Shown one piece after another: positions 10,028 through 27,200 of a stretch of DNA of 31,714 bases. Source of the stretch: a virus; the IMG/VR virus record IMGVR_UViG_3300042434_000452, positions 1-31,714 of that record. The stretch is one strand, 5' to 3'. A program made the position numbers and the translations under genes. The notes below the pieces were generated by a model. The model saw only the letters and a list, made by a program, of their open reading frames with translations. It did not search any database and had not been told where the DNA came from. Positions within the stretch are counted from its first letter, which is position 1, and the number at the start of each line of letters is the position of its first letter.

Positions 10028-11368
10028 TCAGTACAGCCTGATGCCAGTGCTGCGGCCCGCGTTCGCGTGAAGCGGGTTGAACTCACGCCAGACCACGTAC
10101 CCCAAGGCGTCAACCATGTGATCGTGCCCAGCCTCCTTGTCCGGCTCGCCCTTCTCTGTCCAGCTCTGCAGCTCAAGGCATTCGATCAGCCGCGTGCAGC
10201 CCTGCGCCACCGTCAACCGCACCTCGCCCTTCCCGTTTTCCAGCAGTGCCTGAACAGCAGACACCCGATCACGAACAGCAGGGTTAGACCGCCCAGATTG
10301 ATTGCTAAACCCGTAGGACTCCAATATTTGTATGTCAGTCCGGGAGGCGTTGGTGGAGCGATTGCCGCCTGAGGCGTCAGGGTAAACGTAAATACGGTGA
10401 TCGGGATAACGGCGTTTAATTTCTTGCGCCAGTGCATCAGTGTCATGTGCTCCGCTCACTTCATCGACGATGGCCAGTCTGTTGCCATTCCTAACACCAA
10501 TCACGGCAGACATATTCGCAACGTTGAAGTCAACGCCCACGCGCAATGGTTCGTTACTGAAGTCATTAACGGTCGCCACTACATGCTTTGCACGATCAAA
10601 CCTGTCGTACACCTGGCCGGTATTTAGGTTCACCCATTGGCCTTCCAAATACGACTTGATTAACTGCGGCGGATAATTCGCCATCAGGCTGTCAACAAAC
10701 CCGTCGGGCAGGTACGGGTTGTCCATGGTGCGAGCACGGATCAGGGCCGTGTCTTCACCGGCGTTGCGGTCGAACGTATCGAATGCCCAGCCGTAACCTT
10801 CGGGCGTGGTGGCAGCGTAAAACTGCTGCACGTTGCCAGCACGAAGACGGGCCAGAGCCATTCGTGTTGCCTGCTCTGCTACCCGCTTGTTTGCCGTGTC
10901 GGCCTCGTCAAAGCCAATGGCGCAGAGGTTCTGACCACGAATGCGGTTCCACGTCTCCATCGTCCTCAAAAGGATGGTGTGGCTGCCCTCGGCAAAGTGC
11001 AGGGTGTATTCCGGTAGCGGGCTGACGCGGAAATTAAACGGGATCTCCCACTCTTCCAGCAGGTCATCCATGGTGCGCTGGAGGATGTCACGCAACATCG
11101 GGGCGACAGGCTCAAACAGGGCGCTGACGTGGCCGATGTTCAGAGCTGCCATGTGAACGGCCTTGGCTACGAGGCCATGGGTTTTGCCGGCACCGAATCC
11201 GCAGACGAGGGCGAGCTTGCGGTGTTGGGTGTCATCACAAAAGGCCAGTTGATGCGGCAGCAGCGTTTGCCGAATGCGATCTAAGGCCTGTTGGGCTGTT
11301 GGTCCTGAGGCTTGGCTTGACGGTGGATCGAGGAGGAAACCACCGGGAGCGTTGGCGAGGAGGCTCAA
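10028..11368 (-). CDS. terL: Terminase large subunit
   Basis: A 446-aa packaging motor. The ATPase domain has a Walker A GFGAGKT (57-63) and Walker B AIGFDEAD (150-157, Asp154/Glu155). The nuclease domain has the RNase H-like acidic residues in VGVDFN (Asp280), VYPDASG (Asp331) and HDHMVDALGY (Asp420). Length is normal. The start is TTG at 11368, overlapping the terS stop (TTGA); no better in-frame ATG lies nearby before the first conserved helix. It cuts concatemers and pumps DNA through the portal. Confidence 0.95.
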   Translation of the reverse strand: MSLLANAPGGFLLDPPSSQASGPTAQQALDRIRQTLLPHQLAFCDDTQHRKLALVCGFGAGKTHGLVAKAVHMAALNIGHVSALFEPVAPMLRDILQRTMDDLLEEWEIPFNFRVSPLPEYTLHFAEGSHTILLRTMETWNRIRGQNLCAIGFDEADTANKRVAEQATRMALARLRAGNVQQFYAATTPEGYGWAFDTFDRNAGEDTALIRARTMDNPYLPDGFVDSLMANYPPQLIKSYLEGQWVNLNTGQVYDRFDRAKHVVATVNDFSNEPLRVGVDFNVANMSAVIGVRNGNRLAIVDEVSGAHDTDALAQEIKRRYPDHRIYVYPDASGGNRSTNASRTDIQILESYGFSNQSGRSNPAVRDRVSAVQALLENGKGEVRLTVAQGCTRLIECLELQSWTEKGEPDKEAGHDHMVDALGYVVWREFNPLHANAGRSTGIRLY

Positions 11369-11784
11369 GTATCAAGGCCGATGAGTTTGGCTTGAAGCTG
11401 AACGGCGTTGAGGGCGACTTGGGTTTGACCGCGTTTGTAAGCGGACTGTTCGTAGGTACGAAGGCGGCCTAGGGCTTCGGCAATCCATGCCGGACGGGTC
11501 ATGGCGGCGTCTTCTTCTAGGCGGATACGAGCACGTTGGATGTATTCATCGGCCTGCCGCGCAGAGCATTTCCACTGATTGGCTGCAAATTGAACGATCT
11601 GACCACGCGATTGTCCTTCGGTCAAAAGACCGTAAATAGTGTCAACACGGAAGTTGACTTCGGCAGCAGTTGAGCGTGCCAAGTTTGCGGGAAAAAGTGA
11701 TAGGAACAGGATAAACCCAAAAGGTAAAGAATGGAGCGGGTATGTCTCAGATTGGGACACTTGGGACAGCCTTGGGCGAGACAT
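11365..11784 (-). CDS. terS: Terminase small subunit
   Basis: The conserved part, from about residue 35, has a helix-turn-helix-like segment (GQIVQFAANQWKCSARQADE) followed by RARIRLEEDAAMTRPAWIAE and a helical end, as in small terminases of the type found beside this large subunit. Small terminases bind the packaging site and recruit the large subunit. The ATG at 11784 gives 139 aa, but residues 15-34 are hydrophobic and atypical and the DNA there contains direct repeats; a TTG start at 11682 (105 aa) is a serious alternative. Confidence 0.75.
   Translation of the reverse strand: MSRPRLSQVSQSETYPLHSLPFGFILFLSLFPANLARSTAAEVNFRVDTIYGLLTEGQSRGQIVQFAANQWKCSARQADEYIQRARIRLEEDAAMTRPAWIAEALGRLRTYEQSAYKRGQTQVALNAVQLQAKLIGLDT
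11752..11780. repeat. Three direct repeats in the divergent control region
   Basis: TTGGGACAC (11752-11760), TTGGGACAG (11761-11769) and TTGGGCGAG (11772-11780) lie head to tail with 9- and 11-base spacing, on the side of the late operon start. They look like an operator or iteron cluster if the small terminase starts at the TTG at 11682; otherwise they encode the repeat Leu-Ser-Gln/Val-Ser-Gln on the minus strand. Confidence 0.45.
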
Positions 11785-11903
11785 GGCGGTGCGCGGCGCC
11801 GAACCGAAAGACTTTCTGGAGTGTCATAGGGGGCACTTGCGCCCCAGTTAAAAACCGCTAGCTTTTGAAAGCAATTTTCGCAAGGAGCAAATTCCTGCAA
11901 GCC
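11785..11903. promoter_or_regulatory. Early/late divergent control region with GC hairpin
   Basis: These 119 bases separate the rightward early operon from the leftward late operon. They hold a hairpin, GGGGC-N6-GCCCC (11829-11845), and A/T-rich DNA (11848-11880). On the minus strand TTGCTT-N17-TTAACT precedes the hairpin, a weak promoter match. No good plus-strand promoter is visible. Promoters are inferred from layout. Confidence 0.4.
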
Positions 11904-12509
11904 ATGGCAAAAGCCATTTTTCTGCGTTTACCCGACGATTTGGTTTGTGACCTAGAGCGTTACAAACCCAAAACGATGTCCCTGACTGGGTATTGCGCCT
12001 TTCTAATCGAGTTAGGGGTTGACAGGCCAGTTACGCTGGCGGAGCGACCGAAGGGAAGCGAAGCCTCTATTTCTTCTAATAATATTATTGATACTTCTTC
12101 TTCTATTAAAAATATTCCTTTTAATAATATTAATAGTACGGTCGGAAAATCAAAATCCGAAAAGCCGAAAAAGGCCAAGCGACCGGCCTACAGCGACGAG
12201 TTCAACACCTTCTGGAAGCTGTACCAGTCAGCCCCTGATCGTGTCTCATCTCAGACGAAGCCCAAGGCCTACGACGAGTGGAGGGGCATTGTGGCGCTGG
12301 AAGGACCGGAGACCCTCCTGAAAGCCGCTACAAGGGCGATTGAGGAGCAGAAGCGGAAGATGACAGCCGGCGAGTTCGTGGGCAGCCTTCCTGACCTGTT
12401 TCGCTGGCTCCGCGACGGCAAGTACGAGGTTTATCTGGAGGAGCACCAAGCGCAGAAGGCAGGGCGGACATGGAGCGCCGATCTCGGCTGCTGGATTGAA
12501 AATGACTAG
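11904..12509 (+). CDS. Putative replication initiator/replisome organizer
   Basis: A 201-aa protein, ATG at 11904. Residues 1-38 look like a ribbon-helix-helix or small DNA-binding unit (FLRLPDDLVCDLERYKPKTM). Residues 55-80 are a Ser/Asn/Ile linker coded by AT-rich DNA. Residues about 96-190 match the C-terminal module of phage replication proteins: DEFNTFWKLYQSAP, KAYDEWRG, an I-E-E-Q helix, then LPDLFRWLRDGKYEVYLEEH. It is the first early gene. No catalytic motif; host polymerase and helicase would be recruited. An in-frame TTG at 11865 is less likely. Confidence 0.6.
   Translation: MAKAIFLRLPDDLVCDLERYKPKTMSLTGYCAFLIELGVDRPVTLAERPKGSEASISSNNIIDTSSSIKNIPFNNINSTVGKSKSEKPKKAKRPAYSDEFNTFWKLYQSAPDRVSSQTKPKAYDEWRGIVALEGPETLLKAATRAIEEQKRKMTAGEFVGSLPDLFRWLRDGKYEVYLEEHQAQKAGRTWSADLGCWIEND
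12063..12140 (+). other. AT-rich island, candidate replication origin
   Basis: About 78 bases inside the replication-initiator-like gene are nearly pure A/T in an otherwise GC-balanced region. They contain two copies of TAATAATATTA (near 12077 and 12122) and a palindrome AATAATATTATT. An AT-rich unwinding site within the initiator gene is the arrangement of the lambda O gene. No iterons like lambda's were found next to it, so the origin role is inferred. Confidence 0.4.
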
Positions 12510-12542
12510 CCAGCTCGCCCCGCCAACCACTGACGACTCACC

Positions 12543-12830
12543 ATGAAGCTGTATTCACCTGATGCCCGAGGCAAGTACGTCTGGCAGGTGGCTGACGCCA
12601 AGACACGCGCCGTGTCGTACACGGTCACCACGAGCCGTACGCCCCCGCCTGATGCCTGCTACGGGCACCCCATGGGCAAGTACGACGACACCGGCCTGTA
12701 CCTGACCTTTTGCCCGAACGTCGGCGCTGACGATCCGAAGAGCCCACAGGCGGCTCGCTACGTGCTGCACCCCATGGCCGCTGCTGAGCGTGATCGTGCT
12801 GACCGTGAACGGCTCTGGCGCGAAATCTGA
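12543..12830 (+). CDS. Hypothetical early protein (95 aa)
   Basis: A 95-aa protein (MKLYSPDARGKYVWQVADAK at the start, AAAERDRADRERLWREI at the end). The C-terminal helix is charged and amphipathic; the middle is Pro/Gly-rich. It follows the initiator-like gene by 33 bases and its stop TGA overlaps the next start (TGATG). No family recognised. Confidence 0.65.
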   Translation: MKLYSPDARGKYVWQVADAKTRAVSYTVTTSRTPPPDACYGHPMGKYDDTGLYLTFCPNVGADDPKSPQAARYVLHPMAAAERDRADRERLWREI

Positions 12831-15181: not shown

Positions 15182-15748
15182 ATGGCAACCACCAGTTCAC
15201 AAGTCAAGCGGACCTACCAGACATCCCTAATAAACGACAAGGAGCGCAAGGATCCCCGCCACGGCCTTGCCTGTGAATATCTTGCGTTTTGGATGATGGA
15301 AAAATTAGTTCAACCATATTATGAGCAACAACGTGGCGGCAAATCTTACCTAGATAATTATGGCGTTTATCAAATTGCCTCAGGCAACTGCAATCGGACG
15401 GAATTTGTCATTTCCGATTATGTATCTAGGCCGATTAAAAACGAAAACAATTCAAGCCGATTTAATCAAGGAATAAAAGGATATGCCGATGTATTATTTG
15501 GAAGCGAATATAACGCAAAATTTCTTGGGGAAGTAAAAATAACCCCGCAATCAGCAGAAGAAATTTTACAGCAAATTAAATTTTATCATTCTTGTATATA
15601 TTGCGTTCATACAGTAATTGCATTGGATTTTGATTGCCCACAACTCGCTCGAATGGTTGAGGGCACAGACATAACCGTGGTTCGCTTGGGCGAAAAGTTT
15701 GAAATGTTTGCCAAAACACGATCCAATCCTTCAATTCTGGAGATTTGA
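15182..15748 (+). CDS. Putative PD-(D/E)XK nuclease, AT-rich
   Basis: A 188-aa protein. A candidate active site is GYADVLFG (Asp103) and FLGEVKI (Glu117, Lys119), with Glu32 in an N-terminal helix; spacing fits restriction-like nucleases. Its DNA after about 15290 is clearly richer in A/T than the rest of the operon, suggesting recent acquisition. It has the strongest early promoter and a structured leader. Position just after the methyltransferase suggests a restriction-modification-like pair, but no family match is recognised. Confidence 0.55.
   Translation: MATTSSQVKRTYQTSLINDKERKDPRHGLACEYLAFWMMEKLVQPYYEQQRGGKSYLDNYGVYQIASGNCNRTEFVISDYVSRPIKNENNSSRFNQGIKGYADVLFGSEYNAKFLGEVKITPQSAEEILQQIKFYHSCIYCVHTVIALDFDCPQLARMVEGTDITVVRLGEKFEMFAKTRSNPSILEI

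Positions 15749-25184: not shown

Positions 25185-25191
<7 letters not shown>
24964..25191 (-). CDS. Tail-fibre-associated small protein (75 aa)
   Basis: A 75-aa protein: [20 protein letters not shown], a Trp-rich segment ([13 protein letters not shown]), an acidic Pro/Glu linker and the helix [16 protein letters not shown]. The pattern recurs in small proteins encoded after tail fibres (possibly fibre chaperones). Start overlaps the end of the collagen-like fibre gene by 7 bases. Confidence 0.65.

Positions 25192-27196
<2,005 letters not shown>

Positions 27197-27200
<4 letters not shown>

Follow-up and report, generated by a model that had tools for sequence, protein, structure and literature searches.

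A conserved DNA box and an AT-rich island inside an initiator-like phage gene form a candidate replication origin

Why does a gene for a probable replication initiator carry, in its middle, a tract of extreme A/T content? The question is posed by a virus record of 31,714 bases (handle G000; hereafter the window, meaning the whole stretch of DNA analysed), in which terminase genes run leftward from 11784 and an early block runs rightward from 11904, encoding the initiator, an exonuclease, a methylase, a RusA-like protein and a Sak-like annealing protein. A preliminary description of this DNA had placed a possible replication origin at the tract. All named-phage homologues of the initiator C-terminal part belong to cyanophages, which makes a cyanobacterium the probable host. 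Elsewhere in the window, 25185-27200 on the minus strand encodes a long protein with collagen-like Gly-X-Y repeats that is probably tail-associated, and the contigs of several relatives seem to stop in this region. The genes that frame the question are:

11904..12509, plus strand: initiator-like gene, 201 aa (phrog_270, E 1.2e-11, residues 59-192)
11365..11784, minus strand: probable small terminase subunit (phrog_34910, an unnamed family; named here from its position)
10028..11368, minus strand: large terminase subunit (phrog_2, E 2e-48; Terminase_6N/6C)

The initiator-like character of the gene, already suggested from the letters alone, is borne out by matches to phrog_270 "replication initiation protein" in 39/39 aligned members, and class-2 relatives match phrog_678 "O-like" in 2/2 scanned (E 7e-4). 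The protein is organized into an N-terminal part with a putative ribbon-helix-helix-like fold, a linker and a C-terminal part that is helical and has relatives among replication initiation and primosomal proteins. A structure model reaches a pLDDT of 70.3 overall and falls below 50 across residues 40-83, the linker, which is accordingly predicted to be disordered; its N-terminal part has a start stretch followed by two short helices, which may be ribbon-helix-helix, going by familiar patterns of that fold. Profile searches with 1+39+10 proteins gave no Pfam match worth naming for the N-terminal part, and the initiator protein itself had no Pfam, PDB-sequence or PDB-fold match. The C-terminal part is homologous to that of the cyanophage MED4-184 and KBS-S-2A initiators (31.9% and 59.5% identity, respectively).

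The linker is encoded by the AT-rich tract, which contains a short repeat:

12066..12139, plus strand: AT-rich island that encodes the linker; candidate DNA unwinding element (from composition, codons, stability and relatives)
12077..12087, plus strand: TAATAATATTA, copy 1 (exact match)
12122..12132, plus strand: TAATAATATTA, copy 2 (exact match)

Positions 12063-12140 are 79% A/T and the best 78-mer, starting at 12061, reaches 82%, so that the earlier wording of about 78 bases of almost pure A/T was right about the extreme and slightly strong about the purity. The island ranks first for A/T in the 31.7 kb at segment lengths of 50, 78 and 100 bp and is marginally exceeded, at 150 bp, by a second place, 15462-15611, inside a gene annotated without function (15182-15748). 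By nearest-neighbour calculation the island has the lowest duplex stability anywhere in the window, whether at 60, 80 or 100 bp (~5-6 sd from the mean), which upholds the physical side of the proposed unwinding element: an easily melted tract would lie within the initiator gene and separate its two functional parts. The two repeat copies reported earlier are present exactly, at 12077 and 12122, and allowing up to one mismatch gives six matches, all within the island, against 0.08 expected by shuffling. The palindrome reported with them exists in imperfect form (arms 12076-12089 and 12123-12136, 93% complementary), and the single-strand fold of the island is no more stable than that of shuffled sequences (z -0.5). 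At the protein level the island reads SISSNNIIDTSSSIKNIPFNNINS. All 24 codons of 12066-12137 end in A or T, where the window's own codon usage predicts 10.5 (P ~8e-10 for such a run), and none of 20,000 synonymous recodings attained the island's A/T content.

Directly 5' of the island lies a GC-rich block, box A, which the preliminary description had overlooked and which is preceded by a conserved hexamer:

12030..12065, plus strand: box A, GTTACGCTGGCGGAGCGA-N9-AGCGAAGCC (DNA-level conservation, single copy)
12019..12024, plus strand: TTGACA hexamer (conserved at near-fixed spacing from the box)

An initial search for relatives used linker-peptide probes, which favour the island; counts were therefore taken from a linker-blind search with the C-terminal part as probe, whose best 80 of 82 loci yielded 57 distinct ORFs, 41 with the window's linker (type A) and 16 with another (type B). 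One type-A ORF (L060) is truncated by its contig end, leaving 40 of the 41 for codon comparison. The later set comprised 95 distinct genes, ORFs running off the locus, shorter than 150 aa or without a fitting start being left out; three further genes were added for the codon-identity and TTGAC analyses, and two more listings of relatives covered the best 80 of 210 and the best 80 of 231.

Across 49 distinct type-A genes, the 60 bases 3' of the box are 68-87% A/T, and A/T-ending codons are more frequent in the island than in the rest of the gene in every one (49/49; mean 0.91 vs 0.31). The encoded peptides diverge, with a mean identity of ~29% among 35 distinct 20-residue linker pieces, yet the A/T content persists, which indicates that A/T richness is kept and the peptide is not. 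The proposal that DNA function, rather than protein sequence, maintains the island is thereby supported. Box A and the island co-occur in 49/49 genes, are common to several N-terminal types and one unrelated C-terminal class (L161), and the richest 100-bp A/T segment of near-complete box-A genomes falls at the island in 5/6. Relatives that carry the gene and lack the island, which the preliminary description had named as evidence to the contrary, do occur in part: 16 of the 57 ORFs have the other linker, and a 60-mer of 70% A/T lies no more than 330 bp from the box in only 2/46 genes with a second box type, box B, versus 49/49 with box A. The island thus goes with box A and is not required by the gene family.

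Conservation of the boxes themselves extends to synonymous sites. When nine diverse genes with 25-79% identity are compared, the same codon is used at conserved residues in 327/340 comparisons inside the near-invariant box A versus 1322/2246 elsewhere; taken singly, three of the four independent pairs reach significance (P 0.002 to 0.03) and the fourth does not (0.17). Box B, CCGCGTACYGTGTCGGTGCGGG, is equally frozen in other relatives (485/496 inside versus 1362/2748 elsewhere; P <0.03 in 6/6 independent pairs). Pattern scans of the viral collection located box A in 73 contigs and box B in 59, with one copy per long record throughout (18/18 for box A, 19/19 for box B). Two kinds of C-terminal part occur with box A and three with box B, and the latter is also joined to many different N-terminal pieces. 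L182 translates box B in a different frame (AYPRTVSVRE instead of PAYRVGAG), and in L177, a locus on which a search for relatives of the C-terminal domains found none, the box is noncoding and lies between genes. TTGAC stands 5' of the box core in 98/98 genes, 91 in one codon register and seven in another, and the gap to the core shifts by one base between the two registers. Drifted versions of box B occur in five relatives that are more distant, and TTGAC is absent from one of these (L433). Constraint at the DNA level on box and island is hence established about as firmly as sequence allows, and the box beside the island is the more informative signal of the two.

Other readings were discarded. 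For an RNA element there was no Rfam match at gathering score; the box-B core folds better than shuffled sequences (z -3.0) and box A does not (z 0.5), and the box-B stem is, by eye, not kept in divergent box-B relatives. As a host-derived element, box B gave two matches in 84,980 species genomes, both in unrelated bacteria and taken as chance, ~0.5 being expected by our estimate. An argument from helical turns, built on L446, fell when its spacing was recounted. Separately, many box-B linkers contain a recurring protein piece, G[DE]GVG[RK]ESE.[TG]PRK, seemingly across C-terminal classes (L102, L172, L175, L187, L205, L222 and L224).

A further set of conserved blocks, likewise overlooked in the preliminary description, stands immediately upstream of the gene:

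11857..11903, plus strand: blocks before the start codon, candidate protein-binding sites (conserved within N-terminal domain type)

These extend from GCTAGC (11857-11862) to TGCAAGC (11896-11902) in the window. Thirteen genes with an MAK-type N-terminus have common GCTAGC/GCAAGC blocks, and ten MRLEL-type genes have a different set, of CCCGG-type repeats, independently of box type; the MAK blocks are kept in 4/4 MAK-type genes with box B. Upstream DNA of 20 genes with different N-terminal types shows mean z values of 2.66, 1.25 and 1.12 at lags of 10, 20 and 30, compared with 0.38, -0.38 and 0.20 for a coding control, and lag 10 or 11 ranks top in 15/20; the blocks of the window's own N-terminal type show no significant 10-bp period. 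We infer that the N-terminal part binds the repeats 5' of the start codon and that a different factor reads the box.

These features suggest a composite cis-acting element in the initiator gene, most likely the replication origin of the phage with the island as its unwinding part, to which we assign a probability of roughly 0.5. The repeats before the start codon would be recognized by the N-terminal DNA-binding part, the invariant box with TTGAC at near-fixed distance would serve as the core conserved at the DNA level, and the strands would open at the island, as its low stability suggests. The C-terminal part, to judge from its family names, would bring in the replicative helicase. Being disordered, the linker would let the protein tolerate whatever the DNA needs there. 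Across relatives the element stays with the initiator gene and not with the terminase; this association, the gene family and the low duplex stability favour an origin.

It is unlikely that the box, TTGAC and the upstream repeats instead control early-operon transcription, as an operator of the N-terminal domain or a host-factor site, with the island bending or softening the DNA and replication starting elsewhere. The element does sit in the first gene of a rightward operon, its repeats lie directly 5' of the start codon, where autoregulatory sites are common, and these repeats swap along with the N-terminal domain. TTGACA also matches the -35 consensus; however, no -10-like hexamer is found at promoter spacing 3' of TTGACA in either box A or box B, and a promoter at TTGACA was dropped on inspection by eye. 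Transcription control further offers no reason for an operator in the middle of a protein and finds no Rfam match, and box B of L177 lies where a rightward block of genes ends and faces the terminase gene.

Exchange of N-terminal parts is directly visible in the comparison of the window with L005: starting at GTTACGCTGG the two are base-for-base identical over 176 bp, their preceding N-terminal parts differ, and the small-terminase gene beyond is again 99% identical. Seven such pairs were examined and the break lies near the box in all of them (7/7). The box might accordingly be a mere recombination junction and the island a tolerated spacer. We regard this as improbable, since exchange alone would not freeze a 36-bp block between divergent flanks, in two frames and in noncoding DNA, nor would it select A/T-ending codons in 49/49 genes.

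A packaging (cos) site was considered as well, because the record of a 41,864-bp relative (G001) is broken within the box, where it lacks 8 nt (TTACGCTG) and its ends do not overlap, and because the box lies ~250 bp from the terminase genes in the window's clade. G001 (L271-L273) thus starts and ends inside box A, although related phages with the same box end elsewhere. Two box-A records, G003 and G006, end in a 13-bp repeat of their own that precedes a different large terminase by ~650 bp and is separated from the box by 8.5-9.1 kb, and the repeat is likewise placed in G019 and G021, which carry box B; on this ground the cos reading was rejected and is very improbable. The terminase of class-2 relatives is moreover 5-8 kb away, and of the 74 related contigs that the right half-box brought up, only one begins at that point. 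The 13-bp sequence, GGTAATTTCGAAC, occupies L276:1-13 and the end of L277, L280:1-13 and the end of L281, and occurs also in L284 and L286; it is the probable cos site of the G003/G006/G019/G021 clade. A second protein encoded in +1 through box and island, with a basic start and a hydrophobic end, was rejected as scarcely credible: the frame is open for 100 aa in the window with a Leu/Ile-rich stretch, but its hydrophobic part varies from 0 to >20 residues among 40 genes, a stop precedes that part in L061, and box substitutions frequently leave the initiator's residues unchanged while altering those of the +1 frame.

For the replication origin itself, several observations weigh on the other side. 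Only 2/46 box-B genes reach 70% A/T, box B is present in L177 though no C-terminal-domain relative was found at that locus, and the N-terminal type varies while the box does not. A cumulative GC-skew minimum at the island had been suggested as a check, and it lies elsewhere: at 26936 in the window (maximum 15159) and more than 8 kb from the box in 14/14 near-complete relatives, all of which have the maximum within 3.5 kb. A maximum near the box is the reverse of the usual origin polarity. Gene orientation and codon bias may dominate the skew here, and it lends the origin no support. Iterons inside the gene were not found, the box being single-copy and a repeat search of 11600-12700 returning AT-rich repeats and chance-like pairs only. 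A literature search found no paper on this element, subscription journals being mostly outside its coverage.

More tentatively, the origin could be a plug-in unit: an invariant box (A or B), held in frame within the initiator gene, would be read by a factor common to these phages, perhaps the host's, while N-terminal domains with their own repeats and C-terminal helicase-recruiting classes exchange freely and the core stays. The reading frame would then follow the DNA and not the reverse. Origins of uncultured phages are rarely located, and here conservation pinpoints a short, cloneable and testable element inside a gene. The locus also illustrates how an initiator protein can be reassembled from interchangeable halves while the DNA core between them stays constant, and offers a clear case of a disordered protein linker written by the needs of the DNA.

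An origin inside an initiator gene is a known arrangement. As described in PMC7466680, initiator gene O holds the lambdoid origin midway along its length, adjoining an AT-rich unwinding tract; the origin DNA of lambda encodes the region between the DNA-binding and helicase-recruiting parts of O, and iterons within the gene, four in lambda and six in Stx phages, are bound by the O protein. The window resembles lambda in its AT-rich tract midway in an initiator gene, between the two functional parts, and in an initiator of the O / replication-initiation family; it differs in having one invariant box and no in-gene iterons, with domain-type-specific repeats before the start codon. Its N-terminal part is, in addition, not recognized as the lambda type. 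In SPP1, as described in PMC6316719, oriL lies within initiator gene 38 and consists of direct repeats and an AT-rich DNA unwinding element, and a second copy, oriR, is found ~13 kb away. Unlike in SPP1, the element here is present once per genome (37/37 long records), and the two are likened by layout, not sequence. The MED4-184 and KBS-S-2A initiators have another N-terminal part and, unlike the window, no box in the gene. If the element is an origin, for which we see an even chance, its form here, a box plus an island, would be a variation on this known arrangement.
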